Of a stretch of DNA of 64,000 nucleotides, positions 1-27,531 are shown piece after piece. The stretch covers positions 34,888 through 98,887 of the forward strand of contig JAHLKC010000147.1 in assembly GCA_025449115.1 (NCBI GenBank), in the 5' to 3' direction. Each line of letters begins with the position of its first letter. The stretch's first letter is position 1. This stretch comes from Chytridium lagenaria. Taxonomy: Eukaryota; Chytridiomycota; Chytridiomycetes; Chytridiales; Chytridiaceae. The translations under genes were made by a program, and so were the position numbers. The notes under the pieces are model-generated. The model saw only the letters and a program-made list of their open reading frames with translations. It did not search any database and was not told the DNA's origin.

Positions 1-14
1 GTCCAATTGCCTTT

Positions 15-3413: not shown

Positions 3414-3486
3414 ACGTGGGGATCGGATGATATCAGAGATGGGGGAGCCAGAGAAGTCGTGAGTAAAGTTCACGAAAGGGGGAGAA

Positions 3487-3975: not shown

Positions 3976-4061
3976 AGTATTCAACAAGAGGAGCGTAAGA
4001 GTCTTGTCTACTTGTCTTTGGTCTTTGTCTTGCCTCTGTCTAAATGCCCGCAGGTTTGTTT

Positions 4062-4425
4062 TCTTGGGGTTACAGGGCTCTTTGTAATTATAGTAATAAG
4101 CTTAATAAATATATAATGAACTGGTAAACGAGGACTCCAGAGGTGACGACTAATTAATACTGATGACAACTAACTTATATTAATATAGCTTAAAACAATA
4201 CATTATGATATGTGGGTGGCACTCCTAGCCTTAAGGTCTTCTGACTGTGCATCCCTCATTGTCCCAAACTTAACAGAATAAAAAAACTACGGGCGGGGTT
4301 TGGAACATATCAAACTGACAATTTTTAACTTAAGTAATGAAGGCAAGAATTTAGACGGGGCAACAAAAGACTTAGACAAATTTAAATGCGGGTGAGTAAA
4401 CAAAATAGAAAGTTGAAACCCAACA
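4062..4425 (-). repeat. 3' LTR of element I/D (left piece)
   Basis: Reverse-complement LTR. On the - strand it begins TGTTGGGTTTCAACTTTC after a purine tract (AGGGGGAGAA) and ends GAGCCCTGTAACCCC. It is the same family as the LTR at 13244-13600 (shared GGACAATGAGGGATG and AAGACCTTAAGGC blocks) and differs from the E/K/J LTRs. Its outer end (near 4062) is degraded, so the last four bases are uncertain. Confidence 0.82.
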
Positions 4426-4456
4426 TTCTCCCCCTCAGCTTTCTAAACGTGCAGTT

Positions 4457-4991
4457 TTACTCAGCTACTTTAACCATCCCAAACTTAGCGCGTAATTCTT
4501 CAAACTGAGTTCGCGGTAATGCTTTCGTAAACAAATCCGCAGGTTGTAACTTCGTGTTAAGGTATTCAACGCGTATCTTCTTCGCGTTAACTCTGTCTCT
4601 GATGACGTGAAACCTTCTGTCCACATGGCGAGAACTCAGTGAAATGATTGGCGTGCTGGCTAGCGCGTTTGCCGTCGTGTTGTCGCCATAAATGACTGGT
4701 GCGTCGTTAAATGAGTATCCTAGCTCCCCCAGAAGCTGACTAACCCAAATCATATGTGATGATGCCTCACTCAAGGAGACATATTCAGCTTCGGCAGTAG
4801 ACTGAGCCGTTGTCGCTTGCTTCTTAGTTCCCCACACAACAGCTCCCCCATTCAAAGTGATCACAAATCCACTAGTAGACTTCATGTCTGCCGGGTCCGT
4901 TCCCATGTTGGCATCGGCATAACCCACCAATTCCAGTTTCTCTCGACGTGAGTATTGAATCCCCAGCTGCTTCGTTTGCTGAAGATATCCA
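4457..4991 (-). pseudogene. Copia I/D RNase H domain (C-terminal fragment of pol)
   Basis: Translates as a copia RNase H: GYADANMGTDP, STAEAEYVSLSEASSHM, YGDNTTANA and the terminal KFGMVKVAE. It stops abruptly at 4991, where element E begins. On the - strand the piece starts at TGGATATCTTCAGCAAACG (pol residues GYLQQTKQ). The + strand pol fragment that ends at 22287 stops at exactly this place (CTTGTGGAT), so the two are halves of one element, now 17 kb apart and oppositely oriented. Confidence 0.88.
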
Positions 4992-5390
4992 TGTTGGGTC
5001 TATTTCATCTTTCTATTTTGTTTCACTCACCCACATTCGTTATTTTGTCTAAGTTATTTTTCCCCCGAACCTATTTGTTTACGCGTTATTTTAAGTTTTG
5101 AGTTGATCAGTTTATTGAGCTCCTCATTCCATTTGAGGAAGCGTTAATCCCTTTAACCTTATTACTTTATGTTTTATTTATGATACGTAATTGGAGGGAT
5201 TTACGGGTCATGAGTTCTGGTGTAAATCCCCACCCTCTACATGTATTGCGAAAGTAGTTAACATTAATATATGGAAGTTTCGTAGTAATTACCTCCCTGT
5301 CACCGCTGGAGACTCCATCACTATTCTTTATAGTTTAATTCCTTTATTAATATTATAATTTAATTACAATTGAGCCCCGTAACCCCTACA
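4992..5390 (+). repeat. 5' LTR of copia E
   Basis: TGTTGGG...CCCCTACA, 399 bp. It carries the variant ATATATGG...ACCTCCCTGTC, as in the LTRs of J. The other three E/K LTRs carry ACATGG...ACATCTCTGTC. One ACGCGT is present near 5090. Confidence 0.93.
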
Positions 5391-5392
5391 AG

Positions 5393-5404
5393 TGGTAGCA
5401 CTTC
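5393..5404 (+). other. Primer-binding site of copia E
   Basis: TGGTAGCACTTC lies two bases after the 5' LTR. TGGTAGC complements a tRNA 3' end of the form GCTACCA. The same sequence follows the 5' LTRs of I, J and K. The primer tRNA is not identified; an initiator Met tRNA ending GCTACCA is plausible. Confidence 0.65.
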
Positions 5405-5507
5405 ACCTGGTTGGAAGGAGGAGTGAATCGATCCATTTGAGGGCCGAAGAGTAAAAGAGAAAAGAGCGTTTATCCCAAGAAAGAAAGCAAGCTGTCAACA
5501 CGAGAAG

Positions 5508-8500
5508 ATGACGAAAGAAAACGACGACAAACCGGTGATGTTTGATGGGACACAGTTCCACATCTGGAAGTACCGCATGATCGGGTACTTGAAAGGCAAA
5601 GGCCTTTGGAAGATCGTCGAGAAGGGCTGGACGCCCTATGCAGTCGTTGACACGCCTACAAATGCCGAAAAGAAGACTAGGTTAGAAGAAGAAGACCTGG
5701 ACATGAAAGCAAAAGAGAATCGAATCAAGAGTTCACGACATCATCTTACCGTTGAACAGGATGAATCCACGGCAAAGGCGACGTGGGATAAAATATCGAG
5801 ACCTATGAGAGAAAGGCTCAGACGAACAGAAACGCGATTAGACGCAAACTCACGAACTTGAAGATGAAAGAAGAAGACGACTTAAAGACTTACATCGCGG
5901 AGGTCTCGTCAACCATTCAGCAACTGAAGGCAGCGGGGGAAGACACGGCAACCCCGCAACACATCTCCATCCTCTTGACGACCCTCCCGGAAGCATACGA
6001 CATCATAGTCAATCTCCTCGAGAACGAACCCAAAGCCGAGGCTGACTATGCCTATGTCGTTGGAAAGCTGTTAGATCATGAAACGAAATGAAAGAGAGAA
6101 AGAAAGAAAATGAAGAGAATGAAGGCGCTCAGGCTCACGCTGCGGGACGCTACAATAATCAACAACAAAGACACCGCGGCGGCGAGGACCGAGAATGCTA
6201 CAATTGCGGAAAGAAAGGCCACTTAGCAAGAGACTGTTGGAGCGCGAGAAGAAATAACGACAACAGAAATGAAAGAGACAACGAACCCAAGCTCAACCTG
6301 CGGCTGCAGGAAGAGGCTTTTACCGAGGAAGAGGTCGCGGTGGTTTCCGTGGTCGAGGAGGACGCGGAAGAGGAGGTCGAGGCCGAGGTGGTTGGAATCG
6401 AGGACCTAATGCAAACCTGGCAAACCAAAACAACAATCAGAACATCAACAACGGAGGAAATCCTGTGGTATTCGTTGCAGCAGTACCTACCGTCAACATG
6501 AGCTCGGAAGGCGGTCCGCAGACTAGAGACACCAGATGGATGTTAGACTCTGGAGCCACTCACCACATGACGTTCCAGCGCAACATCCTGTCGAACTACC
6601 GCTCCATCCAGTGCAACATCAGCACTGCCGACAACAACAGCAATCTTGAATCCCGTGGAGTTGGTGACTGTGAAGTGAAGATTAGAAACGGTGAAAGAAC
6701 AGGAACGTTAATACTCAAGAACGTGTTATACGTACCAAACATCGGACGGAACCTGATCTCGCTTGGGATGGCGAGAAAGAAGGATCTTGACATATTCCCG
6801 AAGGACGACGGATACGACCTTAAACCAAAGAAAGAACCGTCAGCACAAGCACTTGCAACGTTCACCTACAGCAGCAAAGAGAACTCATTTACCTTGATCA
6901 AGTCATCGAATTCAAGCCAAGCACCCTCAGCAAAGGCGAGAAGCTCTGACACCGCACCAGTGGCACTTGCGGATGGGTCATCTAGGAAAGAAGGGAGTGA
7001 AGAAGTTAATGAAGGTAGCGAAGGGAGTCAAGATGACGAATGAAGACGACACTTACCTGTGTGAGGGTTGTGTTGATGGGAAAATGACAAGGACATCATT
7101 TCCTGACAAACCCGACGAGTTGAAAGCCAAGGAGCCTCTCGAGAAAATCCACGTTGACATCGTTGGACCTATGAAGACCGCGTCAAATGGCGGCGCACGT
7201 TACTTCCTCACCATCGTCGATAGCGCGACAAACTACGTTACCGTTTACCTGTGCAAGAAGAAGAATGAGTCATTCAAGTTCATCAAAAGTTTTAAAGAAG
7301 AAGCCGAGAAGAAAATCAAAAGGAAGCTCATTGAAATCGTGGCAGACAACGGCGGCGAATTCAACAACAAACTAATGAAGGATTGGTGCTTAGAGCATGG
7401 GATTCGACTTACGTTCACCATGCCGTACACACCGCAACAGAACGGTGTTGCCGAACGGATGAACAGGACCTTGAACGAGAGGTCTAAAAGCATGTTAAGT
7501 TCTTCAAAACTCGAAACGCGTTTTTGGGGTGAAGCCGTGATGGCTGCAGCTTACCTCATTAACCGATCACCAACCCGAACGAACGAACAAGATGCAACGC
7601 CGCTTGAGAGATTCGCTGGAGTGAAACCTGACTTGTCGAGACTTCGTGGTTGGGGTTGCCTGGCACTCGTCTTGATACCCAAGCAGCAACGAAAGAAGGG
7701 AGATTTAACGCACGACGGTGTGCTCTCGTTGGGTATGAGCCGCTGGGCTATCGCCTTTGGGATTTGCAAACGAATAAGTTGGTTAGAAGCAAGTCAGTGA
7801 TTTTTAACGAGGGAGTAATGGCGGCGGAAGCAGAGAAGGGAGAATCAAAGTTTGAAGGGGAGGTTCAAGAATGGAAAAACGACTAGACTTACCGGATTAC
7901 TCTACAGACTCGTCAAGCTCTGGTGGAGTGAAGTTGACACGGCGATAATGACGAAGAGTCTGAAGATGAAGATGATAATGTTAGTTATCATACACCCGAT
8001 CGCGACGACGATGAAGATGAAGAAAGAGAGGAACCTCACTCACCTACGGTTCGTCGATCCGGTGGAAGAAGAGTTCCAAACTTCCGTGAAGACCTGGATG
8101 AGCCATACGAAACATCCCTTCGAAGGTCATCACGGAACAAGAAGAAGCCTGGAGAGTTTTGGACGGTTAGACCATCAGCAAACACGGCATCGTTAGAAGA
8201 TGACGACGAACCAAAGACCTACCAGGAAGCGATGGGTAGGAAGGAGAAGGACGAGTGGAGGAAAGCGATGGAGGAAGAAATGAAAAGTTTGTTGAGATGG
8301 GAACATGGAGGTTGGTTCCCCGACCTAAAGGGAGAAAGATTATTAAATCAGGATGGGTGTACAAAACAAAGCGAGATGAGTTGGGAAATCTCGATAAACG
8401 AAAGCGAGATTTGTTGCTAAAGGCTACTCGCAGAAACAAGGAATCGACTATGACGAGAAATTCGCACCCGTCATCAAGCAAGCACGTTGAGAGTGATGCT

Positions 8501-9773
8501 TGCGGTCGCTTGTCAAGAAAACATGGAGATTCGACAATACGACGTCAAGACCGCGTTCTTGAATGGGAAGTTGGAAGATCATGAGATATATATTGAACAG
8601 CCTGAAGGATTCGTCGTTGAAGGGAAGGAGACTGGGTGTGCCTGTGCATGAAGAGTCTCTACGGACTCGTTCAAGCACCAATGTGTTTCAACACCGACTT
8701 GAACACGTCCAAGTCGACGAGGAGAAGTTTACTCGGTCAGCGGCGGATCCATGCCTTTATTACAAGCGAAACGGCAAGGATCTCACCTTGAAGGGAGTTT
8801 ACGTCGATGATATCATAGAAGCGTCGACGAGCAAGGAGGAATTAGATCGATCAGAAAAAACGATTCATGAGACGTTACCGAGGTACAAGAGCATCAAGTT
8901 TTCGATACGTCCTGGGGTGGCAATGTCGATATGATCGTGTAAAAGGGAAGATTGTGGTGTTCCAGCAGAGATACATCGAAACGATGGGTCAAAAGCTGGA
9001 ATTACCGAAAACTCTTTTACACTATACTCCAATGGACGCCGTGAAGAAACTCCTGAAGAACATGGAAGGGGAGATAATGAAAACGAACGAGAAGAATCAA
9101 GGATACCGACAGTACACTGGATCTTTAATGCATGCGATGATTGGAACTCGACCTGATATAGCATTCGCGCTTGGAATGAGCGCTAGGTTTCAAGAGAACC
9201 CTTACCCAGCGCATTGGGATGCGCTTTTACCGAACTTGTGGATACTTACAGCAAACGAAGCAATTGGGTATTCAGTATACTAGAAAGGACAAGCTGGAAT
9301 TGGTGGGATATGCAGACGCCGACATGGGAACGGATCCAGACGACATGAAGTCAACGAGTGGTTTTGTGATCACGTTAAACGGGGGAGCTGTGGTGTGGGG
9401 AACGAAGAAACAAGCAACGACGGCCCAGTCTACCGCAGAAGCTGAATATGTTTCACTTAGTGAAGCATCGTCACATATGATATGGGTTAGCCAACTTCTG
9501 GGGGAGTTGGGTTATACGTTTAATGACCCCCCGGTGATTTACGGCGACAACACGACAGCAAATTCCCTCGCCAGCACGCCGATAATATCGCAAAGTTCAC
9601 GACACGTGGATAGAAGGTTCCACGTCATACGAGATAGGGTTAACGCGAAGAAAATACGCGTGGAGTACCTGAACACGAAAGAGCAACCTGCAGACTTGTT
9701 TACGAAAGCTTTGCCGCGAACGAAGTTTGAAGAATTACGAGCAAAGTTTGGGATGGTTAAAGTGGTTGATTAA
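5508..9773 (+). pseudogene. Copia E gag-pol, many frameshifts
   Basis: Gag begins ATGACGAAAG at 5508 and carries a CCHC zinc knuckle, CYNCGKKGHLARDC, at about 6195-6237. Protease DSGATHHMT is near 6550. Integrase shows HVDIVGP, VADNGGEF and NGVAERMNRT at about 7150-7470. RT YVDDIIEA is near 8800-8825 and RNase H STAEAEYVSLSEA near 9430-9470. The frame changes at least eight times (near 5860, 6090, 6440, 6930, 7710, 7880, 8300-8640, 9230). Nearly all steps are single-base gaps relative to K, for example GATTTAACGC at 7703 against GATTTCAACGC in K. Not translatable as written. Confidence 0.9.
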
Positions 9774-9804
9774 AACTGCAAGGTTAGAAAGCTGAGGGGG
9801 AGAA

Positions 9805-10205
9805 TGTTGGGTTTATTCATCTTTCTATTTTGTTTCACTCACCCACATTCGTTATTTTGTCTAAGTTATTTTTCCCCCGAACCTATTTGTTTACGCGTTA
9901 TTTTAAGTTTTGAGTTGATCAGTTTATTGAGCTCCTCATTCCATTTGAGGAAGCGTTAATCCCCTTAACCTTATTACTTTATGTTTTATTTATGATACGT
10001 AATTGGAGGGATTTACGGGTCATGAGTTCTGGTGTAAATCCCCACCCTCTACATGTATTGCGAGAAGTAGTTAACATTAATACATGGAAGTTTCGTAGTA
10101 ATTACATCTCTGTCACCGCTGGAGACTCCATCACTATTCTTTATAGATTAATTCCCTTTATTAATATTTATAATTTAATTACAATTGAGCCCCGTAACCC
10201 CTACA
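9805..10205 (+). repeat. 3' LTR of copia E
   Basis: 401 bp, TGTTGGG...CCCCTACA, preceded by the polypurine tract GCTGAGGGGGAGAA (9791-9804). It carries the ACATCTCTGTC variant shared with both K LTRs. The right flank AAGAC (10206-10210) is the reverse complement of the right flank of K. Confidence 0.93.
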
Positions 10206-10280
10206 AAGACAAATTAGTAGGTTCACTTTCATTAACAGAAGAGAAGTAACGCTACGATCAAGAAGAAACGAAAACTCACC

Positions 10281-10785
10281 CATCAAGAGCCCTCAAAACA
10301 CTCCATCCCATCTCCACTGACCCCTCTAATATTCTTCTCCTTCGCAACTGCATCCATCATATCCTCAAGCTGCTCATTTGTCGGCACCTTCCCATCCACA
10401 AGTGCCTTATAAGCCGCAATTAATCTCATAAAAACAGGTGGCTGCTCAAGCATCGACGACCTCCTATCAAACGCAGGAGCTCTTTGTCTGACTGTGCCCG
10501 GGGAAGGGTAATGCAGAGCAACGCGAGGGTCATGCGGAAGACGGGACTAGGACTCGCTGAGATCTCCACCGGTCCTTGTTGGGCCGAGGTAAGGTTGAGT
10601 GACGCGGCATCCCGATGGACCCGAGGAAACAGCACCAGTGATGTTTCCACCAACATTTCGGGAAAACTGGGAGGTATGAGATGGGGAAGAAGAATTGAAT
10701 ATGCACTTACAGCTTCGAGACGGTCTTTCAGGCTTTGAGTGTCAGCGGTGTGAACCCCACTCAGTTTGTAGTCTGCGGTAGGCAT
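10281..10785 (-). pseudogene. 5' exons of a host gene split by inversion (unknown function)
   Basis: Exon 1 (10711-10785) begins MPTADYKLSGVHTADTQS and ends at GCT|GTAAGTG. A 164-nt intron (10547-10710) ends CCTAG. Exon 2 (10281-10546) continues in phase with VALHYPSPGTVRQRAPAFDR and ...MLEQPPVFMRLIAAYKALVDG, and ends at a good donor, GG|GTGAGT. A one-base frame change is needed near 10329-10345 (AAGGAGAAGAATATT) to keep the exon open to that donor. The intron that starts here runs into element E. Its missing 3' half (branch site plus acceptor) lies right of K at 27516. I do not recognise the family. A TATAAAA box sits about 56 bp upstream of the ATG. Confidence 0.68.
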
Positions 10786-10840
10786 GGCAATGAAATTATG
10801 AAAAGAAGCAACAAGGGGATAAAGAAGCGGACGGGACAGC

Positions 10841-10847
10841 TTTTATA
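10841..10847 (-). promoter_or_regulatory. TATA box of the split host gene
   Basis: TATAAAA on the - strand, 56 bases before the ATG at 10785, in otherwise non-repetitive DNA. Position and sequence match the TATA boxes of the two secreted-protein genes at 56.2-56.7 kb. Confidence 0.45.
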
Positions 10848-10954
10848 AAAAACGTTAAAGCCTAAGTGGTGGTTGGCCGTCCCCCGGGCTCTCCCGTCAT
10901 GCATGATGGATGGATGCCTCCAACTGGGTGACAATTTGGTGGAATTGATAAATG

Positions 10955-11548
10955 GGCAATGCTTTCGTAAACAAATCTGCAGGTTGTAACTTCGTGTTAA
11001 GGTAATCAACGCGTATCTTCTTCGCGTTCACTCTGTCTCTGATAACGTGAAACCTCCTTTCCACATGGCGAGAACTCTGTGAAATAATTGGCGTGCTGGC
11101 AACAGCGTAGGCGGTAGTGTTATCCCCATAAAATACTGGTGGGTCATTGAACGAATCTCCCAGCTCCCCCAAAAGTGGACTAACCCAAAACATATGAGAC
11201 AACACCTCACTCAGCGGAACGAATTCTGCTTCAGCTGTAAACTGAGCCGTCGTTGCCTGTTTCTTAGTTCCCCACACAACAGCTCCCCCATTCAGTGTGA
11301 TCACAAATCCACTGGTTGACTTCATCTCTGCCGGATCCGTCCCCATGTTGGCGTCCGCATATCCCAACAATTCTAGTTGCTCTCTTCTCGATACTGAATC
11401 CCCAGTTGCTTAGTTTGTTGAAGATATCCTCAAGTGCGGTAAAGCGCATTCCAATGCGCAGGGTAAGGGTTCTCTTGGAATCTTGCGGCCCTACCCAGTG
11501 CAAACGCGATATCTGGTCGCGTTCCAATCATGGCATGCATCAAGATCC
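10955..11548 (-). pseudogene. Truncated copia RT/RNase H fragment
   Basis: RNase H motifs are visible: GYADANMGTDP, TAEAEFVPLSE, YGDNTTAYAVA. Upstream is a short RT remnant matching the K region around GTRPDIAF. Both ends stop abruptly with no LTR, and several substitutions alter conserved residues (for example SHMFW for SHMIW). It is an old, dead fragment, most similar to D. Confidence 0.85.
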
Positions 11549-11591
11549 AGTGGAACGCTTCCGAAACCCCCTAATGTCCGGGTTTGTCAAT

Positions 11592-11623
11592 TTTGCAAAC
11601 GGTTGGTCAAACACGTTTGCAAA
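11592..11623. repeat. Inverted repeat (10-bp arms)
   Basis: TTTGCAAACG at 11592-11601 is the exact inverse of CGTTTGCAAA at 11614-11623, with a 12-base loop. Confidence 0.8.
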
Positions 11624-11657
11624 GATATTTAGCACTCATTTTAAACGGATCGTCAAA

Positions 11658-11690
11658 GTTTGCCGAGACCAAAAAACGATCTCGGCAAAC
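11658..11690. repeat. Inverted repeat (11-bp arms)
   Basis: GTTTGCCGAGA at 11658-11668 is the exact inverse of TCTCGGCAAAC at 11680-11690, with an 11-base loop. It shares GTTTGC with the neighbouring repeat. Confidence 0.8.
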
Positions 11691-11809
11691 TCGAAATTTT
11701 CAAATACATTTGCAGATTCTGGTCTTGCCCACGTTAAAAGCATCCCTTGTACGAAAGTGTCCGCCTTCTCAAAGATGCCGCCGGAACCCGTCACTTCCAA
11801 ACTAAAAGG

Positions 11810-12141
11810 TGTTGGGTTTCGCTCTCTTGACTCACAAGGACGCTCAGGATCACTCGCACCATTAGTCCGCGGCGTCGGGCGCACTAGAGTGCTCTGGAAT
11901 TTACGCGTCGTTAGAGTTGAGTGCGAACGCGCCCACTGGACTTCTAATTTACATTCTGGACTCATTTGAATTTCCACTTTGATTTACCTTCCTTGATTGG
12001 TTTATTTTCTTTATGCCAGTTTAATTATAACTCTACCTGTTTGGGATTGGACATTCCCTTCACCCTTTTTTCTCTTTGTTCCCGTTAAGGCTTTTGGATT
12101 TGTTTACCTTTATCTTTGGAGAACAAAACGAGTGAGTGCAC
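11810..12141 (+). repeat. Partial LTR of the copia A family
   Basis: Starts TGTTGGGTTTCGCTC and matches the first two-thirds of the LTR at 3487-3975, including CGGCGTCGGGCGC and TTTGATTTACCTTCC. It breaks off in GTGAGTGCACGC, where a pol fragment of another copia family begins. Confidence 0.85.
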
Positions 12142-13243
12142 GCAACAGGCAGCAGCTTACCTCATTAACCGTTCCCCAATCCGTACAAATGAAGTGACGC
12201 TACACAGCTTGAAACATTCGCCGGAGTCAAACCGGCCTTGTCGAGATTGAGGGGGGTGTGGATGCTTAGCACTTGTTTTGATTCCCAAGCAGCAGCGGAA
12301 AAAAGGGCGATTTTAACGCGCGACACTGCGCTCCTGTTGGGTATGAACCGTTGGGTTACGCCTGTGGGATTTGGAAACAAACAAGCTGGTCAGAAGCAAA
12401 TCCGTCATCTTTAACGAAGGGGTGATGGTTGCTGAATCAGAGAAGGGAGATTCAAAAGTTTGAAGGGGAGGTTCAAGAGTGGAAAGCCGACTTGGTTTTA
12501 CCTGATTATTCCACAGACTCGTCAAGCTCTGGTGGAAGCAAAGCGGATACGGCAGTGGATGATGAGGAATCTGAAGATGATGAAGATGATAATGTTAGTT
12601 ATTGTAGGGGTTACGGGGCTCAAATGTAATAAAATATAATGAATTAATAAAGAGAATTAAACTATAAAATGGTGATGGAGTCTCCAGAGGTAACTTAAAC
12701 CTACTTACGATGAAACTTCCATGTATTAATATTAACTACTTTTCGCAATACATGTAGGAGATGGGGATTTACACCAGAACTCATGATCCGTAAATCCCTC
12801 CTTTTACGTGTCATAAACTAAACATGAAATAATAAAGTTAAGTGATTAACGCATCCTCACATGGAATGAGGAGCTCAATAAACTGATCAAATCAAAACTT
12901 AAAATAACGCGTAAACACATAAGGTTTGAGGAAAAATAACTTAGACAAAAAAAACGAATGTGGGTGAGAAAACAAAATAGAAAGATGAATAAACCCAACA
13001 GTTATCACACTCCTGACCGCGGCGAATTTGAAGAAGAAGATAGAGAGAACCCGCTCACCTACTGTTCGACGTTCTGGTGGTCGTCGCGTACCAAACTTCC
13101 GTGAAGACCTGGATGAACCACACGAGACATCTCTTCGAAGATCAACACAAAACAAGAAGAAACCTGGAGACTTTTGGACGGTCAAGCCATCGGCAAAACG
13201 CCATCGGAGACGCGTATACTCACGCGTTAAACTCTCCATTACA
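12142..13243 (+). pseudogene. Truncated copia pol fragment (integrase end and linker), interrupted by a solo LTR
   Basis: Corresponds to integrase residues from AAYLINR through the KQQRKK, GYEPLGYR-like and acidic linker region, then VPNFREDLDEP-like sequence. A solo LTR (12603-13000) interrupts it; removing that LTR and one target copy rejoins GTTAGTTATCACAC as in the related elements. It ends at 13243 against the 5' LTR of element I. Frameshifts abound. Confidence 0.85.
12603..13000 (-). repeat. Solo LTR (E/K/J family) with target duplication GTTAT
   Basis: TGTAGGGG...CCCAACA, 398 bp, - orientation, no internal region. GTTAT occurs at 12598-12602 and again at 13001-13005. This proves insertion into the older pol fragment followed by LTR-LTR deletion. 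Confidence 0.95.
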
Positions 13244-13600
13244 TGTTGGGTTTCATCTTTCTATTTGTTTACTCACCCGCATTTAAATTTGTCTAAGTCT
13301 TTTGTTGCCCGTCTAAATTCTTGCCTTCATTACTTAGTTAAATATTGTCAGTTTGATATGTTCCAAACCCAGCCCGTAGTTTATTTATTATGTTTTGGGA
13401 CAATGAGGGATGCAACAGTCAGAAGACCTTAAGGCTAGGAGTGCACCCACATATCATAATGTATTGTTTTAAGCTATAATAATATAAGTTAGTTGTCATC
13501 AGTATTAACTAGTCGTCACCTCTGGAGTCCTTGTTTACCAGTTCATTGTATATTTATTAAGCTTATTACTATAATTACAAAGAGCCCCGTAACCCCTACA
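13244..13600 (+). repeat. 5' LTR of element I/D
   Basis: TGTTGGGTTTCATC...CCCCTACA, 357 bp. Same family as the LTR at 4062-4425 over its whole length and unlike the E/K/J LTRs. Confidence 0.92.
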
Positions 13601-13748
13601 AGTGGTAGCACTTCGGCTGGTTGGAAGAAGGAGTGAACAATCCATTTGAGGACTAAGGAGTAGAGAACAGCAGAGAAGAGTGTGAGCATTGCAAGAAAGA
13701 AAGAATCAGTCCCAAGGCACCAAAGAAAGTAACCAGTCAACACGAAAG

Positions 13749-16700
13749 ATGACGAAAGAAAAGGACGACAAACCTGTGATGTTTGATGGCACACAGTTCC
13801 ACATCTGGAAGTACCGCATGGTCGGTACCTCAAAGGCAAGGGCCTTTGGAAGATTGTGGATAAGGGCTGGACGCCCTATGCAGTCGTTGACACGCCTACA
13901 AACGCCGAGAAGAAAACTAGGTTAGAAGAGGAAGACCTGGATATGAAAGCAAAAGCGAGAATTGAATCAAGAGTGCATGATATCATCTTACCGCTAATCC
14001 AGGATGAAATAACGGCGAAAGCAACTTGGGATAAAATTGTCGAGACCTATGAGAGAAAGGCTCAGACAAACAGAAACGCGATTAGAAGAAAGCTCACCAA
14101 CTTGAAGATGAAAGAAGAGGACGACTTAAAGACTTACATTGCAGAGATCTCGTCAACAATCCAGCAACTAAAGGCTGCGGGGGAGGACACTGGAACCCCG
14201 CAGCACATCTCTATCCTTCTGACCACCCTACCAGAAGCGTATGATATTATCGTAAATCTCCTCGAGAACGACCAAAGCAGAGAATGACTATGCCTATGTG
14301 GTGGGAAAACTGTTAGATCATGAGAAAATTAAGAAAGAAAAAGGAGAACAGAGGACAGGTGCTCAAGCTCATGCTGCAGGGAGACATAACAATCAGCAGG
14401 CAACGCGGAGGTGAAGACCGCGAATGTTTCAATTGTGGTCGAAGAGGACACCTGGCTAGAGATTGCTGGGGTGCTAGACGAAACATCGAAAATAGATACG
14501 ATGGAAACAACGAACCTCAAGCTCAACCAGCAGCAGCTGGAAGAGGTCATTTCCGTGGACGAGGACGTGGTGGATTCCGTGGTCGGAGGCCGCGGAAGAG
14601 GTGGTCGAGGCCGTGGTGGTTGGAACCGTGGCCCTAATGCAAACGTAGCGAATCAGAACAACAATCAAAACAACAACAACAACGGAGGGAATCCAGTAGT
14701 GTTCGTTGCCGCAGTGCCAACAGTCAACATGACTGGGGATGGCATGCTGCAAGCGAGAGACACTAGATGGATGTTAGATTCAGGAGCTACTCACCATATG
14801 ACGTTTCAACGCAACATCCTGTCAAACTACCGATCCATTCAGTGCAACATCAGCACGGCGGACAGCCAGAGCGAGCTGGAATCGAAAGGGGTCGGAGACT
14901 GTGAAGTAAAGATTAGAATTGGGGAAGAACAGGAACGCTAATACTGAAGAATGTGTTATATGTACCGAACATCGGACGGAACCTATCTCGCTTGGGATGG
15001 CGAGGAAGAAAGAACTGGACATCTTTCCAAAAGATGATGGCTATGATCTGAAACCGAAGAAAGGACCATCAGCACAAGCGCTAGCAACATTCACATACAG
15101 CAGCAAGGAAAACCTCATTTACCTTGATCAACGTCGGAGTCTAAACCCAGCACCTCCGTTGCAAAGGCTGGGAAGCCACTATCGCCACATCAGTGGCACC
15201 TGAGGATGGGTCATCTAGGAAAGAAGAGTGTGAAGAAGTTAGTGAAGGTTGCAAAGGGAGTCAACATGACAGATGAAGAGGACACTCACCTTTGCGAAGG
15301 GTGTGTTGATGGAAAGATTGTTGGGTTTTACATCTTCACTTATATTCACGTGTTAGTTTTCGCTATTATGTTGGTTAATGACTCTTGGTCTTTCTACTGT
15401 TTGTTTAGTTACTTGGTTTTTGTTCTTCGTGTTATTCTCCATGTCATCGACTGTGCGGGAACTGTGCTGCGACTGTGCAGGCACAGTGATGACAACAGCG
15501 GCTTTGCCGACTGTGCTACGACTGTGCCGACTGTGCCAGCTCTTAGTATAAGAACTCAAGGTTTTCCAATGTAATAAAATAAGTGATCATATATATACAT
15601 TTGTCTTTATTGAGCTCTAAGTACGCGTCAGGATCCAACAAAGATGACGAGAGTTTCATTCCCTGACAAACCCGACGAAATCAAAGCTAAAGAACCTCTT
15701 GAATGGATTCACGTCGATATTGTCGGCCCTATGAAGAATGCGTCAAACGGCGGCGCAAGATACTTTCTCACAATCGTGGACAGCGCCACAAACTACGTGA
15801 CCGTGTATCTGTGCAAGCAGAAGAGCGAGTCAGTAAAGTTATTAAGAGTTTTAAAGAAGAAGCCGAAAAGCGCATCAAGCAGAAATTGAAAGAGATTGTG
15901 GCGGACAACGGTGGGGAGTTCAACAACAAAATTATGAAGGATTGGTGTTTGGAGCATGGAGTACGACTCACCTTCACCATGCCGTACACACCGCAGCAGA
16001 ACGGTGTTGCTGAGAGGATGAACAGGAGCTTGAACGAGCGATCTAAGAGCATGTTAAGCTCATCAAAACTGGAAACGAGATTTTGGGGAGAAGCTGTGAT
16101 GGCTGCAGCTTACCTTATCAATAGATTGCCTACGCGCACCAACGAAGAAGACGCCACGCCACTTGAGAAATTTGCCGGAGTCAAGCCTGATCTCTCGAGG
16201 TTGCGTGTCTGGGGATGCCTCGCGCTTGTCTTGATCCCAAAGCAGCAGAGAAAGAAAGGCGACTTTAACGCTCGCCGCTGCGTGCTTGTGGGATATGAAC
16301 CGCTTGGATACCGCCTGTGGGACTTGCAAGCAAATAAGCTGGTTAGAAGCAAGTCTGTTATTTTTGATGAAGGAGTTTTTGGGGGGAAGAGAAGAGAGAG
16401 ACAGAAGTTTGAAGGGATGTATCAGAATGGAAGAGTGATCTGGACTTACCAGATTACAACACGGATTCGGCAAGTTCTGACGGAAGCGAGGGCGAAACCG
16501 CTGTAGATGACAACTCCGATGAAGAGGAAGATGATAATGTTAGTTATCACACACCTGATCGTGAAGACTACAACGAAGAAGATAGAGAAGAACCACGTCA
16601 CCTACGGTTCGTCGATCAGTGGAAGAAGAGTGCCAAATTTCCGTGAAGACCTGGATGAACCGTACGAAACATCCCTTCGAAGGTCAACAAGGAACAAGAA

Positions 16701-17228
16701 GAAACCTGGAGAGTTTTGGACGGTTAAGCCATCCGCCAACACCGCATCATGGGAAGAAGATGATGATGAGCCAAAAACTTACTTAGAAGCGATGCAGAGG
16801 AAGGAGAAGGATGAATGGAGGAAAGCAATGAAGAGGAGATGAAGAGCTTGGTCGAGATGGGGACTTGGAGGCTGGTGCCCCGACCAAAAGACAAGAAAAT
16901 AATTAAATCTGGATGGGTGTACAAAACTAAGCGCGATGAGTTGGGTAATTTGGACAATGTTGACGATATCATTGAAGCGTCAACAAGCAAGGAGGAACTG
17001 GACAGATCGGAGAGAAGATTTATGAGACGTTACCTTTGAACACGAGCTGCAAGTTTTCGATACGTATTGGGCTGGCAGTGTCGCTATGATCGTGTGAAAG
17101 GGAAGATTGTGGTGTTCCAGCAGAGATACATCGAAACGATGGGTCATAAGCTGGAATTACCGAAACCCTTTTGCATTACACGCCAATGGACACTGTGAAA
17201 AGCTGTTGAAGACAATGGAAGGCGAGAT
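13749..17228 (+). pseudogene. Copia I gag-pol (interrupted)
   Basis: Gag starts MTKEKDDKPVMFDGTQFHIW. The zinc knuckle is CFNCGRRGHLARDC (about 14427-14468). Protease DSGATHHMT is near 14780. Integrase shows HVDIVGP, VADNGGEF and NGVAERMNRS (15700-16030). The linker has VPNFREDLDEPYE. Beyond 16930 the RT is damaged: the conserved block before VDDIIEAS is deleted, so GNLD runs directly into NVDDIIEAS near 16960. Frames shift near 13830, 14285, 14940, 15130, 15840 and 16840. The RT tail resumes at 22116-22287. Confidence 0.88.
15319..15640 (+). repeat. Solo LTR of a third copia family, target duplication AAGAT
   Basis: TGTTGGGTTTTACATC...GGATCCAACA, 322 bp, with perfect 6-bp inverted ends TGTTGG/CCAACA. 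AAGAT stands at 15314-15318 and 15641-15645. Inside, at about 15448-15540, GACTGTGC-type units recur at least five times. One ACGCGT lies near 15624. No internal region is present. Confidence 0.93.
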
Positions 17229-17626
17229 TGTAGGGGTTACGGGGCTCAATTGTAATTAAATATAATGAATTAATAAAGAGAATTACTATAAAGAATGGTG
17301 ATGGAGTCTCCAGCGGTGACAGGGAGGTAATTACTACGAAACTTCCATATATTAATTTAACTACTTTTCGCAATACATGTAGAGGTGGGGATTTACATCA
17401 GAACTCATGATCCGTAAATCCCTCCAAATTACGTATCATAAATTAAACATAAAATAATAAAGTTTAAGGGATTAACGCATCCTCAAATGGAATGAGGAGC
17501 TCAATAAAACTGATCAACTCAAAAACTTAAATAACGCGTAAACGAATAGGTTCGGGGGAAAAATAATTTAGACAAATAACGAATGTGGGTGAGTGAAACA
17601 AAATAGAAAGATGAATAAACCCAACA
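17229..17626 (-). repeat. 3' LTR of copia J
   Basis: TGTAGGGG...CCCAACA as read on +, 398 bp. It has the GACAGGGAGG variant also seen in the 5' LTR of E. The polypurine tract beside it reads AGTGAGGGGGGAA on the - strand. Confidence 0.93.
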
Positions 17627-17655
17627 TTCCCCCCTCACTTTCTAACCTTGCAGTT

Positions 17656-20600
17656 TTAATCAACCACTTTAACCATCCCAAACTTTGCTCGTAATTCTTC
17701 AAACTTCGTTCGAGGCAAAGCTTTCGTAAACAGGTCTGCAGGTTGCTCCTTCGTGTTCAGGTACTCCACGCGTATTTTCTTCGCGTTAACCTATCTCGTA
17801 TGACGTGGAACCTTCTATCCACGTGTCGCGAACTTTGCGATATTATCGGCGTGCTTGCGAGGGAATTTGCCGTCGTGTTGTCGCCGTAAATCACCGGAGG
17901 GTCATTAAACGTATAACCCAACTCCCCCAGAAGTTGGCTGACCCAATCATATGTGACAATGCTTCACTAAGTGAAACATATTCAGCTTCGCGGTAGACTG
18001 AGCCGTCGTCGCTTGCTTTTTCGTTCCCCACACCACAGCTCCCCCGTTCAAAGTGATTACAAAACCACTTGTTGACTTCATGTCGTCCGGATCAGTTTCC
18101 CATGTCTGCGTCTGCATATCCCAACCAATTCCAGCTTGTCCTTTCGAGTATACTGAATTCCCAACTGCTTCGTTTGCTGTAAGTATCCACACGTTCGGTA
18201 AAGCGCATCCCAATGCGCAGGGTAAGGGTTTCTTGAAATCTAGCACTCATTCCAGGCGAATGCTATATCAGGTCTTGTCCCGATCATCGCATGCATCAAG
18301 GATCCAGTGTACTGTCGGTATCCTTGATTCTTCTCTTGTTTTCGTTATCTCCCCTCCATGTTCTTCAGGAGTTTCTTACGGCGTCCATTGGGGTATAGTG
18401 TAAAAGGTTTTCGGTATTCCAGCTTTTGACCCATCGTTTCAATGTATCTCTGCTGGAACACCACAATCTTCCCTTTTACACGATCATAGCGACATTGCCA
18501 CCCCAGGACATATCGAAAACTTGAAGCTCTCGTACTTCGGTAACGTCTCATGAACCGTTTTTCTGATCGGTCTAATTCCTCCTTGCTCGTCGACGCTTCT
18601 ATGATATCATCAACGTAGACGCCCTTCAAGGTGAGGTCCTTGCCGTTTCGCTTGTAGTAAAGGCACGGATCCGCCGCAGAGCGAGTAAACTTCTCCTCGT
18701 CGACTTGGAACGTGTTCAAGTCGGTGTTGAAACACATTGGTGCTTGAACGAGTCCGTAGAGGCTCTTCATGCACAGGCACACCCAGTCTTCTTTCCCTTC
18801 AACGACGAATCCTTCTGGTTGTTCGATATAGATCTCATGATCTTCAAGCTTGCCATTCAAGAACGCGGTTTTGACGTCGTATTGTCAAATCTCCATGTTT
18901 TCTTGACAAGCGACCGCAAGCATCACTCTCAGTGTTTTTGCTTGATGACAGGTGCGAACTTCTTGTCATAGTTGATTCCTTGTTTTTGCGAATAACCTTT
19001 AGCGACAAATCTAGCTTTGCGTTTGTCGAGATTTCCCAGCTCATCTCGCTTTGTTCTGTACACCCATCCTGATTTAATAATCTTTCTCCCTTTAGGTCGG
19101 GGAACCAACTTCCATGTTCCCATCTCAACCAAACTCTTCATTTCCTCCTCCATCGCTTTCCTCCACTCGTCCTTCTCCTTCCTACCCATCGCTTCCTGGT
19201 AGGTCTTTGGTTCGTCGTCATCTTCTAACGAAGCCGTGTTTGCTGATGGTCTAACCGTCCAAAACTCTCTGGGCTTCTTCTTGTTCCGTGATGACCTTCG
19301 AAGGGATGTTTCGTATGGCTCATCCAGGTCTTCACGGAAGTTTGGAACTCTTCTTCCACCAGATTGACGAACCGTAGGTGAGTGAGGTTCCTCTCTTTCT
19401 TCATCTTCATCGTCGTCGCGATCAGGTGTATGATAACTACATTATCATCTTCGTCATCTTCAGGCTCTTCGTCGTTTACCGCAGTATCAATTTCACTTCC
19501 ACCAGAGCTTGACGAGTCTGTAGAGTAATCCGGTAAGTCTAGGTCGTTCTTCCACTCTTGAACCTCCCCTTCAAACTTTGATTCTCCCTTTCTGCTTCTG
19601 CCGCCATTACTCCCTCGTTAAAAATCACTGACTTGCTTCTTATCAACTTATTTGTTTGCAAATCCCACAGGCGATAGCCCAGCGGCTCATACCCAATGAG
19701 AGCACACCGTCGTGCGTTGAAATCTCCCTTTTTTCGTTGCTGCTTGGGTATCAATACGAGTGCCAGGCAACCCCAACCACGAAGTCTTGACAAGTCAGGT
19801 TTCACTCCGGCGAATCTCTCAAGCGGTGTTGCATCTTGTTCGTTCGTTCGGGTTGGTGATCGGTTAATGAGGTAAGCTGCAGCCATCACGGCTTCACCCC
19901 AAAAACGCGTTTCGAGTTTTGAAGAACTTAACATGCTTTTAGACCTCTCGTTCAAGGTCCTGTTCATACGTTCGGCAACACCGTTCTGTTGCGGTGTGTA
20001 CGGCATGTTGAAGGTAAGTCGAATCCCATGCTCTAAACACCAATCCTTCATTGGTTTGTTGTTGAATTCGCCGCCGTTGTCTGCCACGATTTCAATGAGC
20101 TTCCTTTTGATTTTCTTCTCGGCTTCTTCTTTAAAACTTTTGATGAACTTGAACGACTCATTCTTCTTCTTGCACAGGTAAACGGTAACGTAGTTTGTCG
20201 CGCTGTCGACGATGGTGAGGAAGTAACGTGCGCCACCGTTTGACGCGGTCTTCATAGGTCCAACGATATCGACGTGGATTTTCTCGAGAGGGTCCTTGGC
20301 TTTCAACTCGTCGGGTTTGTCAGGAAATGATGTCCTTGTCATTTTCCCATCAACACAACCCTCACAAAGGTAAGTGTCATCTTCATCGTCATCTTGACCC
20401 CCTTCGCTACCTTCATTAACTTCTTCACTCCCTTCTTTCCTAGATGACCCATCCACAAGTGCCACTGGTGCGGTGTCAGAGGCTTCTCGGCCTTTGCTGA
20501 GGCGGTGCTTGGCTTGAATTCGATGACTTGATCAAGGTAAATGAGATTCTCTTTGCTGCTGTAGGTGAACGTTGCAAGTGCTTGCGCTGACGGTTCTTTC

Positions 20601-21595
20601 TTTGGTTTAAGGTCGTATCCGTCATCCTTCGGAAATATGTCAAGATCCTTCTTTCTCGCCATCCCAAGTGAGATCAGGTTCCGTCCGATGTTTGGTACGT
20701 ATAAAACGTTCTTGAGTATTAACGTTCCTGTTCTTTCGCCGTTTCTAATCTTCACTTCACAGTCACCTACTCCACGGGATTCAAGGTTGCTGTTGTTGTT
20801 GGCAGTGCTGATGTTGCACTGAATGGAGCGGTAGTTCGACAGGATGTGGCGCTGGAACGTCATGTGGTGAGTGGCTCCAGAGTCTAACATCCATCTGGTG
20901 TCTCTAGTCTGCGGACCGCCTTCCGAGCTCATGTTGACGTAGGTACAGCTGCAACGAATACCACAGGGTTTCCTCCGTTGTTGTTGTTCTGATTGTTGTT
21001 TTGGTTTGCCAGGTTTGCATTAGGTCCTCGATTCCAACCACCTCGGCCTCGACCTCCTCTTCCGCGTCCTCCTCGACCACGGAAACCCCCGCGTCCTCTT
21101 CCACGGAAAAAGCCTCTTCCTGCAGCCGCAGGTTGAGCTTGAGGTTCGTTGTCTCTTTCATTTCTGTTGTCGTTATTTCTTCTCGCGCTCCAGCAGTATC
21201 TTGCTAAGTGACCTTTCTTTCCGCAATTGTAGCATCTTCAAGTTCGTGAGTTTGCGTCTAATCGCGTTTCTGTTCGTCTGAGCCTTTCTCTCATAGGTTT
21301 CGATGATTTTATCCCATGTCGCCTTTGCCGTAGATTCATCCTGGATTAGCGGTAAGATGATATCATGAACTCTTGATTCAATTCTCGCTTTTGCTTTCAT
21401 GTCCAGGTCTTCTTCTTCTAACCTAGTCTTCTTTTCGGCATTTGTAGGCGTGTCAACGACTGCATAGGGCGTCCACCCTTTCTCGACGATCTTCCAAAGG
21501 CCTTTGCCTTTCAAGTACCCGATCATGCGGTACTTCCAGACGTGGAACTGTGTCCCATCAAACATCACAGGTTTGTCGTCTTTCTCTTTCGTCAT
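17656..21595 (-). pseudogene. Copia J gag-pol with internal gag deletion
   Basis: Gag begins MTKEKDDKPVMFDGTQFHVW at 21595. Just before the zinc knuckle, 332 bp present in K (26308-26639) are missing. The junction is GTAGCAT|CTTCAAG with a 3-bp CAT microhomology, and 332 is not a multiple of three. Protease DSGATHHMT (near 20880), an open integrase with VADNGGEF and NGVAERMNRT (19900-20300), RT YVDDIIEA (near 18600) and RNase H to KFGMVKVVD follow, with several frameshifts. Confidence 0.9.
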
Positions 21596-21713
21596 CTTTC
21601 TCGTGTTGACAGCTTTCTTTCTTTCTTGGGATAAACGCTCTTTTCTCTTTTACTCTTTGGCCCTCAAATGGATCGATTCACTCCTCCTTCCAACCAGGTG
21701 AAGTGCTACCACT

Positions 21714-22115
21714 TGTAGGGGTTACGGGGCTCAATTGTAATTAAAATAGAATGAATTAATAAAGAGAATTATACTATAAAGAATGGTGATGGAGTCTCCA
21801 GCGGTGACAGGGAGGTAATTACTACGAAACTTCCATATATTGATTCTAACTACTTTTCGCAATACATGTAGAAAGTGGGGATTTACATCAGAACTCATGA
21901 TCCGTAAATCCCTCCAAATTACGTATCATAAATTAAACATAAAATAATAAAGTTAAGGGATTAACGCATCCTCAAATGGAATGAGGAGCTCAATAAACTG
22001 ATCAACTCAAAAACTTAAATAACGCGTAAACGAATAGGTTCGGGGGAAAAATAACTTAGACAAAATAACGAATGTGGGTGAGTGAAACAAAATAGAAAGA
22101 TGAATAAACCCAACA
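21714..22115 (-). repeat. 5' LTR of copia J
   Basis: 402 bp, TGTAGGGG...CCCAACA, followed on the right by the target copy GAGAT. Confidence 0.94.
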
Positions 22116-22287
22116 GAGATAACTAAAACAAACGAGAAGGGACAAGGATACCGACAGTATACCGGATCGTTGATGCACGCTATGATTGGGACGCGACCAG
22201 ATATCGCGTTTGCACTGGGAATGGCGGCTAGATTTCAAGAAAATCCTTACCCATCACATTGGGACGCGCTTTACCGCACTTGTGGAT

Positions 22288-22687
22288 TGTAGGGGTTACG
22301 GGGCTCAATTGTAATTAAATTATAAATATTAATAAAGGGAATTAATCTATAAAGAATAGTGATGGAGTCTCCAGCGGTGACAGAGATGTAATTACTACGA
22401 AACTTCCATGTATTAATGTTAACTACTTCTCGCAATACATGTAGAGGGTGGGGATTTACACCAGAACTCATGACCCGTAAATCCCTCCAATTACGTATCA
22501 TAAATAAAACATAAAGTAATAAGGTTAAGGGATTAACGCTTCCTCAAATGGAATGAGGAGCTCAATAAACTGATCAACTCAAAACTTAAAATAACGCGTA
22601 AACAAATAGGTTCGGGGGAAAAATAACTTAGACAAAATAACGAATGTGGGTGAGTGAAACAAAATAGAAAGATGAATAAACCCAACA
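22288..22687 (-). repeat. 3' LTR of copia K
   Basis: 400 bp, TGTAGGGG...CCCAACA; carries the ACAGAGATG variant. It abuts element I RT sequence ending TGGAT. Confidence 0.94.
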
Positions 22688-22718
22688 TTCTCCCCCTCAG
22701 CTTTCTAACCTTGCAGTT

Positions 22719-25700
22719 TTAATCAACCACTTTAACCATCCCAAACTTTGCTCGTAATTCTTCAAACTTCGTTCGCGGCAAAGCTTTCGTAAACAAGTCT
22801 GCAGGTTGCTCTTTTCGTGTTCAGGTACTCCACGCGTATTTTCTTCGCGTTAACCCTATCTCGTATGACGTGGAACCTTCTATCCACGTGTCGTGAACTT
22901 TGCGATATTATCGGCGTGCTGGCGAGGGAATTTGCTGTCGTGTTGTCGCCGTAAATCACCGGGGGGTCATTAAACGTATAACCCAACTCCCCCAGAAGTT
23001 GGCTAACCCATATCATATGTGACGATGCTTCACTAAGTGAAACATATTCAGCTTCTGCGGTAGACTGGGCCGTCGTTGCTTGTTTCTTCGTTCCCCACAC
23101 CACAGCTCCCCCGTTTAACGTGATCACAAAACCACTCGTTGACTTCATGTCGTCTGGATCCGTTCCCATGTCGGCGTCTGCATATCCCACCAATTCCAGC
23201 TTGTCCTTTCTAGTATACTGAATACCCAATTGCTTCGTTTGCTGTAAGTATCCACAAGTTCGGTAAAGCGCATCCCAATGCGCTGGGTAAGGGTTCTCTT
23301 GAAACCTAGCGCTCATTCCAAGCGCGAATGCTATATCAGGTCGAGTTCCAATCATCGCATGCATTAAAGATCCAGTGTACTGTCGGTATCCTTGATTCTT
23401 CTCGTTCGTTTTCATTATCTCCCCTTCCATGTTCTTCAGGAGTTTCTTCACGGCGTCCATTGGAGTATAGTGTAAAAGAGTTTTCGGTAATTCCAGCTTT
23501 TGACCCATCGTTTCGATGTATCTCTGCTGGAACACCACAATCTTCCCTTTTACACGATCATATCGACATTGCCACCCCAGGACGTATCGAAAACTTGATG
23601 CTCTTGTACCTCGGTAACGTCTCATGAATCGTTTTTCTGATCGATCTAATTCCTCCTTGCTCGTCGACGCTTCTATGATATCATCGACGTAAACTCCCTT
23701 CAAGGTGAGATCCTTGCCGTTTCGCTTGTAATAAAGGCATGGATCCGCCGCTGACCGAGTAAACTTCTCCTCGTCGACTTGGAACGTGTTCAAGTCGGTG
23801 TTGAAACACATTGGTGCTTGAACGAGTCCGTAGAGACTCTTCATGCACAGGCACACCCAGTCTTCCTTCCCTTCAACGACGAATCCTTCAGGCTGTTCAA
23901 TATATATCTCATGATCTTCCAACTTCCCATTCAAAAACGCGGTCTTGACGTCGTATTGTCGAATCTCCATGTTTTCTTGACAAGCGACCGCAAGCATCAC
24001 TCTCAACGTGCTTGCTTGATGACAGGTGCAAATTTCTCGTCATAGTCGATTCCTTGTTTCTGCGAGTAGCCTTTAGCAACAAATCTCGCTTTTCGTTTAT
24101 CGAGATTACCCAACTCATCTCGCTTTGTTTTGTACACCCATCCTGATTTAATAATCTTTCTCCCTTTAGGTCGGGGAACCAACCTCCATGTTCCCATCTC
24201 AACCAAACTTTTCATTTCTTCCTCCATCGCTTTCCTCCACTCGTCCTTCTCCTTCCTACCCATCGCTTCCTGGTAGGTCTTTGGTTCGTCGTCATCTTCT
24301 AACGATGCCGTGTTTGCTGATGGTCTAACCGTCCAAAACTCTCCAGGCTTCTTCTTGTTCCGTGTTGACCTTCGAAGGGATGTTTCGTATGGCTCATCCA
24401 GGTCTTCACGGAAGTTTGGAACTCTTCTTCCACCGGATCGTCGAACGGTAGGTGAGTGAGGTTCTTCTCTTTCTTCATCTTCATCGTCGTCGCGATCAGG
24501 TGTATGATAACTAACATTATCATCTTCATCATCAGACTCTTCGTCATTAATCGCCGTGTCAACTTCACTACCACCAGAGCTTGACGAGTCTGTAGAGTAA
24601 TCCGGTAAGTCTAGATCGTTTTTCCATTCTTGAACCTCCCCTTCAAACTTTGATTCTCCCTTCTCTGCTTCCGCCGCCATTACTCCCTCGTTAAAAATGA
24701 CTGACTTGCTTCTAACTAACTTATTCGTTTGCAAATCCCAAAGGCGATAGCCCAGCGGCTCATACCCAACGAGAGCACACCGTCGTGCGTTGAAATCACC
24801 CTTCTTACGTTGCTGCTTGGGTATCAATACGAGTGCCAGGCAACCCCAACCACGGAGTCTTGACAAGTCAGGTTTAACTCCAGCAAATCTCTCAAGCGGC
24901 GTTGCATCTTGTTCGTTCGTTCGGGTTGGTGATCGGTTAATGAGGTAAGCTGCAGCCATCACGGCTTCACCCCAAAAACGCGTTTCGAGTTTTGAAGAAC
25001 TTAACATGCTTTTAGACCTCTCGTTCAAGGTCCTGTTCATACGTTCGGCAACACCGTTCTGTTGCGGTGTGTACGGCATGGTGAAGGTAAGTCTAATCCC
25101 ATGCTCTAAACACCAATCCTTCATTGGTTTGTTGTTGAATTCGCCGCCGTTGTCTGCTACGATTTCAATGAGCTTCCTTTTGATTTTCTTCTCGGCTTCT
25201 TCTTTAAAACTTTTGATGAACTTGAACGACTCATTCTTCTTCTTGCACAGGTAAACGGTAACGTAGTTTGTTGCGCTATCGACGATGGTGAGGAAGTAAC
25301 GTGCGCCGCCATTTGACGCGGTCTTCATAGGTCCAACGATGTCAACGTGGATTTTCTCGAGAGGCTCCTTGGCTTTCAACTCGTCGGGTTTGTCAGGAAA
25401 TGATGTCCTTGTCATTTTCCCATCAACACAACCCTCACACAGGTAAGTGTCTCTTCATTCGTCATCTTGACTCCCTTCGCTACCTTCATTAACTTCTTCA
25501 CTCCCTTCTTTCCTAGATGACCCATCCGCAAGTGCCACTGGTGCGGTGTCAGAGTCTTCTCGACCTTTGCTGAGGCGTGCTTGGCTTGAATTCGATGACT
25601 TGATCAAGGTAAATGAGATTCTCTTTGCTGCTGTAGGTGAACGTTGCAAGTGCTTGTGCTGACGGTTCTTTCTTTGGTTTAAGGTCGTATCCGTCGTCCT

Positions 25701-26997
25701 TCGGGAATATGTCAAGATCCTTCTTTCTCGCCATCCCAAGCGAGATCAGGTTCCGTCCGATGTTTGGTACGTATAACACGTTCTTGAGTATTAACGTTCC
25801 TGTTCTTTCACCGTTTCTAATCTTCACTTCACAGTCACCAACTCCACGGGATTCAAGATTGCTGTTGTTGTCGGCAGTGCTGATGTTGCACTGGATGGAG
25901 CGGTAGTTCGACAGGATGTTGCGCTGGAACGTCATGTGGTGAGTGGCTCCAGAGTCTAACATCCATCTGGTGTCTCTAGTCTGCGGACCGCCTTCCGAGC
26001 TCATGTTGACGGTAGGTACTGCTGCAACGAAGACCACAGGATTTCCTCCGTTGTTGATGTTCTGATTGTTGTTTTGGTTTGCCAGGTTTGCATTAGGTCC
26101 TCGATTCCAACCACCTCGGCCTCGACCTCCTCTTCCGCGTCCTCCTCGACCACGGAAACCACCGCGACCTCTTCCTCGGTAAAAGCCTCTTCCTGCAGCC
26201 GCAGGTTGAGCTTGGGTTCGTTGTCTCTTTCATTTCTGTTGTCGTTATTTCTTCTCGCGCTCCAACAGTCTCTTGCTAAGTGGCCTTTCTTTCCGCAATT
26301 GTAGCATTCTCGGTCCTCGCCGCCGCGGTGTCTTTGTTGTTGATTATTGTAGCGTCCCGCAGCGTGAGCCTGAGCGCCTTCATTCTCTTCATTTTCTTTC
26401 TTTCTCTCTTTCAGTTTCGTTTCATGATCTAACAGCTTTCCAACGACATAGGCATAGTCAGCCTCGGCTTTGGGTTCGTTCTCGAGGAGATTGACTATGA
26501 TGTCGTATGCTTCCGGGAGGGTCGTCAAGAGGATGGAGATGTGTTGCGGGGTTGCCGTGTCTTCCCCCGCTGCCTTCAGTTGCTGAATGGTTGACGAGAC
26601 CTCCGCGATGTAAGTCTTTAAGTCGTCTTCTTCTTTCATCTTCAAGTTCGTGAGTTTGCGTCTAATCGCGTTTCTGTTCGTCTGAGCCTTTCTCTCATAG
26701 GTCTCGATGATTTTATCCCATGTCGCCTTGCCGTAGATTCATCCTGGATTAGCGGTAAGATGATATCATGAACTCTTGATTCAATTCTCGCTTTTGCTTT
26801 CATGTCCAGGTCTTCTTCTTCTAACCTAGTCTTCTTTTCGGCATTTGTAGGCGTGTCAACAACTGCATAGGGCGTCCAGCCCTTCTCGACGATCTTCCAA
26901 AAGCCTTTGCCTTTCAAGTACCCGATCATGCGGTACTTCCAGATGTGGAACTGTGTCCCATCAAACATCACCGTTTGTCGTCGTTTTCTTTCGTCAT
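22719..26997 (-). pseudogene. Copia K gag-pol, few breaks
   Basis: Gag at about 26997-26040 has the zinc knuckle CYNCGKKGHLARDC (near 26270-26310) and an RG-rich stretch. Protease DSGATHHMT is near 25940. An open stretch 25415-24003 (470 codons) covers integrase (HVDIVGP, VADNGGEF, NGVAERMNRT), the acidic linker and the RT N-terminus. A second one, 24006-22762 (414 codons), covers RT (YDVKTAFLNGK, YVDDIIEAS) and RNase H (STAEAEYVSLSEA, YGDNTTANS). The two are offset by one frame at 24003-24006. Further single-base breaks are near 26970, 26730, 26040, 25570, 25450 and 22815. A working copy would need only a handful of corrections, so recent activity of the family is likely. Confidence 0.9.
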
Positions 26998-27114
26998 CTT
27001 CTCGTGTTGACAGCTTGCTTTCTTTCTTGGGATAAACGCTCTTTTCTCTTTTACTCTTCGGCCCTCAAATGGATCGATTCACTCCTCCTTCCAACCAGGT
27101 GAAGTGCTACCACT

Positions 27115-27515
27115 TGTAGGGGTTACGGCGCTCAATTGTAATTAAATTATAAATATTAATAAAGGGAATTAATCTATAAAGAATAGTGATGGAGTCTCCA
27201 GCGGTGACAGAGATGTAATTACTACGAAACTTCCATGTATTAATGTTAACTACTTCTCGCAATACATGTAGAGGGTGGGGATTTACACCAGAACTCATGA
27301 CCCGTAAATCCCTCCAATTACGTATCATAAATAAACATAAAGTAATAAGGTTAAGGGGGATTAACGCTTCCTCAAATGGAATGAGGAGCTCAATAAACTG
27401 ATCAACTCAAAAACTTAAAATAACGCGTAACAAATAGGTTCGGGGGAAAAATAACTTAGACAAAATAACGAATGTGGGTGAGTGAAACAAAATAGAAAGA
27501 TGAATAAACCCAACA
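27115..27515 (-). repeat. 5' LTR of copia K
   Basis: 401 bp, TGTAGGGG...CCCAACA, nearly identical to 22288-22687 and to 9805-10205. Confidence 0.94.
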
Positions 27516-27531
27516 GTCTTTCTGTTTCTAG

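Follow-up and report, generated by a model that had tools for sequence, protein, structure and literature searches.

Probable inversion by recombination between two opposed copia elements in Chytridium lagenaria

Two copia elements in opposite orientation, E and K, bound a segment of about 12 kb in the Chytridium lagenaria assembly (41.9 Mb, 356 contigs), and neither element has matching flanks at its own two ends. The locus thus raises the question of whether the segment was turned over by recombination between the elements, or whether chance, separate exchanges or an error of assembly could have produced the same pattern. The window analysed here is a stretch of 64,000 nucleotides (C147:34888-98887), and nested copia sequence fills most of its left 29 kb (Table 1).

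Exchanged target duplications and a split older element

The assignment of E and K to Ty1/copia follows from the K frames, which match gag, zinc knuckle, Pol beta-barrel domain, integrase and RVT_2 in copia order, with integrase ahead of reverse transcriptase and the zinc knuckle accompanying gag, and from LTRs of the form TG...CA with a 5-bp duplication. Other repeats were also seen in the window. Positions 1-3986 hold a different copia element, and at least 23 other places match nearly all of 1-3387 at 97-99%. Frames at 45108-47167 on the minus strand, resembling integrase, zinc knuckle and gag-pre-integrase weakly, mark a further diverged copia, and a direct repeat of ~235 bp (97%) lies at 42539-42772 and 48293-48525. 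Of two frames compared with protein sequences, one had no match at E <= 0.001 and turned out to belong to a diverged copia; the other had 4442 matches, the 120 listed being at 33-43% identity.

Table 1. Features of the locus, in window coordinates
Feature	Position	Strand	Description
P, 3' part	4066-4991	-	includes 3' LTR (4066-4425, last 4 bases missing); outside inverted segment
ATCCA	4987-4991	+	E 5' flank, site 1
E	4992-10205	+	copia element, 5214 bp, hybrid
E 5' LTR	4992-5390	+	ordinary type
Switch interval in E	8558-8894		K-private variants start in E (E positions 3567-3903)
E 3' LTR	9805-10205	+	type of both K LTRs; 0 substitutions against K 3' LTR
AAGAC	10206-10210	+	E 3' flank, site 2 inverted
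Inverted segment (probable)	10206-22287		without the element parts that moved along
S	12603-13000	-	solo LTR, duplication GTTAT intact
P, 5' part	13244-17228	+	5' LTR (13244-13600) and most of body; inside inverted segment
T	17229-22115	-	copia element nested in P, duplication GAGAT intact
P, fragment	22116-22287	+	between T and K
TGGAT	22283-22287	+	K low-side (3') flank, site 1 inverted
K	22288-27515	-	copia element, 5228 bp
GTCTT	27516-27520	+	K high-side (5') flank, site 2

E and K are 98.5% identical across 5.2 kb. An earlier note on this DNA had held that their flanks do not match within either element and that flipping the intervening segment gives both a perfect 5-bp duplication at once; all four flanks read as it said, and the flip does restore both duplications. 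Two homologous copies, opposed and standing at both ends of a segment, together with exchanged target site duplications, are marks of inversion by ectopic recombination, and the E/K pair carries both.

Copies of the family elsewhere in the genome, drawn from the listed genome matches rather than from every copy present, served as a control. Target duplications were kept in 19 of the 22 copies with both ends readable, exactly in 16 and, if one single-base change is allowed, in three more (on C78, C24 and C111); only C36a, C36b and C142 had none. Left outside this count were nine of 22 short-window pairs with one end not found, the C99 copy, whose 5' end runs off the contig, and four copies truncated where their contigs stop. 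Contig C18 holds another close inverted pair of copies, and both of its duplications are intact. As a separate observation, C142:85961-105700 and C24:~81955-101687 carry the same sequence by comparison beside the element and ~18.5 kb away, meeting at a copy of the E/K family.

An older copia element, P, is split by the proposed flip. From its 5' LTR P runs to T, which interrupts it; a fragment of P follows on the far side of T, up to K, and the rest lies on the minus strand from 4991 to 4066. On E, window 22116-22287 aligns with 4080-4252 and window 4991-4356 (minus) with 4248-4888; the two stretches are neighbours, and their overlap is exactly the 5-bp duplication. That the flip rejoins P in frame was confirmed, as the 180-base join (90 + 90) is one open frame reading GYLQQTKQ. 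The further proposal that rejoined P gains two LTRs of one family stood at 94.8% identity, with a corrected boundary: the distal LTR is 4066-4425, not 4062-4425. This LTR is without its last four bases, and with them the end beside which P's own target duplication could be read.

The unflipped order elsewhere in the genome

Both ancestral joins were found in the genome. We scored a join as spanned when a match extended at least 30 bases on both sides. The unflipped join at site 2 was spanned in five loci representing two places, C67 (L002, L006 and L007, 94.9-95.3%) and C58 (L003 and L005, 92.6%). At site 1, all 14 close P-family loci cut out (L020-L033, 94.7-96.3%) spanned the unflipped join, L029 (C106) and L030 (C72) scoring alike and perhaps being a single sequence that both contigs carry; copia copies of greater divergence (78-85%) spanned it as well. 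The present joins were spanned in 0 of the 33 loci compared. The non-inverted order with single targets is thus found elsewhere, at site 1 through P copies only, C67 not being among the 79 matches listed there (40 of 452 candidates scored).

C67 matches the window in reverse from 11752 to 10207, then from 27516 to 30471, and the match continues at 33037-38000 and, at 94%, at 50000-55000. Because it is collinear over these four stretches, the first of them flipped, we read C67 as a second copy of the region, allelic or duplicated, that is unflipped and has no element at site 2. On C58 the match stops at window positions 10956 and 28541, and C58 is therefore taken to be a dispersed copy of lesser length. 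A match of 94% to ~50280-55000 is found in C189 too. More broadly, window 27516-55000 has copies at ~92-98% in C67:149182-184444 and, in part, in C189:56221-61047.

A hybrid element and the proposed exchange

The earlier note had suggested aligning E and K to find where diagnostic variants switch, and half of what it looked for appeared: E switches and K shows no detectable switch. Of the variants private to K, E has 1 of the 40 that lie no further than position 3567 and all 9 that lie at position 3903 or beyond, E 788-2230 being a silent stretch without K-private variants (Fisher P = 5e-9, with the sites linked and so not independent). The switch was kept when one copy was dropped (2/43 versus 10/10) and when T was added (1/26 versus 8/8). 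Aligned differences between E and K number 20, 1, 28 and 2 in E 1-810, 810-2230, 2230-3570 and 3570-5214, and E 3570-5214 differs from six other copies at 26-58 sites. In this 3' part E and K are each other's best match. Among the ordered pairs that eight copies can form (56 in all), K-E gave the sharpest switch (0.975). Four others, one being the same pair reversed, exceeded the 0.6 needed for printing, and the next in rank reached 0.75.

Up to E position 5118 no switch was found in K, which keeps its private variants to ~100 bp from the site-1 flank. The last 100 bp are without a private variant, and a crossover there would leave a hybrid state of K invisible.

The LTR pairs differ by six substitutions in E, by one substitution and several single-base gaps in K, and by 12 substitutions in T. 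K would therefore have inserted recently relative to T, and a flip later than the insertion of K would also be recent relative to that of T. Pairing LTRs to see which ends belong together was uninformative, the 3' LTRs of E and K being the same. Between themselves, the LTRs at 9805-10205, 22288-22687 and 27115-27515 differ mostly by single-base run lengths, which looks like uncorrected sequencing error. Reverse transcription yields two identical LTRs, whereas those of E differ, so a template-switch hybrid formed before insertion was rejected.

We consider it likely that the segment was inverted by ectopic recombination between two inverted copia copies, A and B, accompanied by a conversion tract. 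Copia A would have inserted at ATCCA within P, and the related B, facing the other way, at GTCTT ~12 kb off. If A then broke within its 3' third or close by, and B served as the template for repair, a crossover would have flipped the intervening DNA, leaving E as the 5' two-thirds of A with the 3' third of B, and K as the body of B joined to A's former right flank. An exchange in chromosomal DNA between A and B is needed because the two LTRs of E differ in type. K carries the B type to ~100 bp from its 3' end, so A's 3' third would have been lost, which points to a crossover and, next to it, a conversion tract; with no switch in K, a simple reciprocal crossover within the element bodies does not fit. 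The tract, ~1.2-1.6 kb of A replaced by B sequence, would run from E position 3567-3903 to within ~100 bp of the LTR end, or to its end, and the crossover would fall somewhere from E position 3567 to where the 3' LTR ends. A single event would have made both flip and conversion, in the direction B to A, given a correct assembly. The earlier note had called the inversion proven. Recombination is indeed supported by the swapped duplications, the split P, the uninverted C67 and the switch in E; "proven" is too strong with a misjoin possible.

A misjoin, which we judge unlikely though deserving of serious weight, would mean that the segment is truly unflipped and that the assembler crossed between the near-identical inverted elements in their shared 3' third. 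E and K align there over ~1.6 kb with single-base gaps and no substitution, the single-base length differences suggest unpolished repeats, and five contigs (C99, C128, C171, C309 and C90) run out before a copy is complete. The C142 copy, moreover, has unmatched flanks, and its 5' flank matches C24 both beside the element (~400 bases compared, one 2-base difference) and ~18.5 kb away (all 1201 bases agreeing), these two stretches alone having been compared; the C24 copy carries a near-matching duplication. By these matches C142 probably holds a misjoin, or is a redundant contig, at a copy of the E/K family. Against an error at our locus stands the K-type LTR at site 1's far flank, with K-private variants within ~100 bp: a real exchange is therefore needed anyway, and a misjoin would require conversion as well as error. 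The inverted pair on C18, moreover, came through assembly with both duplications intact.

Two or more separate exchanges, with the 3' third of A converted once by B or a B-like copy and the flip made another time, seem very unlikely. Other possible donors do exist, namely the C215 copy, which is 99% like K in the middle and, in the 3' part, 99% like E, and the C36 copy, 99% like E in its 3' part; yet E and K best match each other there, and one repair event is simpler. That decayed duplications of two elements happen to match crosswise is extremely unlikely: we found no point in its favour, both swapped 5-mers would match by chance with a probability of ~1e-6, and both ancestral joins exist.

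Recurrence and comparison with known systems

Recombination between A and B, which we favour at this locus, may have a parallel. C36:32931-47413 (L120, L123 and L124) holds a second candidate rearrangement between opposed copies, in which TTATT stands at the 5' flank of a plus copy and again at the 3' flank of a minus copy ~14.5 kb away. The joined C36 flanks are contiguous in at least 38 dispersed places at 82-85% (40 of 229 candidates scored), 36 of them matching over bases 8-283 or 8-284 of 400, one over 17-284 and one over 44-284. The remaining ends, CTTTC (beyond an older joined element) and TTAAT, do not match each other, so the C36 case is more complex. From the contrast between C147 and C67 and this second rearrangement, we tentatively raise the possibility that the E/K family repeatedly makes small, young inversions with one-sided end conversion, which differ between co-existing copies of a region.

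Swapped duplications with a mapped switch would document, at the level of single bases, an inversion made by LTR retrotransposons, the unflipped order persisting in the same genome. They also suggest a simple screen, for unmatched duplications that match crosswise, which here yielded the second case on C36 and the probable assembly error on C142.

Unlike LTRs such as those of E are known from crapaud, an LTR retrotransposon of Podospora anserina, in which 7 of 150 full copies carry them and the authors invoke gene conversion or ectopic recombination (PMC10787394). The passages of that report available to us show no inversion between crapaud copies, in contrast to the one probable here. Closer in kind is inversion 2z3 of Drosophila buzzatii, made by Galileo, which according to the passages available shares opposed copies, exchanged target duplications, hybrid structure and a single target in non-inverted chromosomes (PMC2775673). 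Galileo is a DNA transposon with 7-bp duplications, whereas an LTR retrotransposon with 5-bp duplications is involved here, and both Galileo copies were reported as hybrid, whereas only E is so by the markers used (PMC2775673). By this comparison the E/K inversion would be a new case of a kind of event already known, as from Galileo and 2z3.
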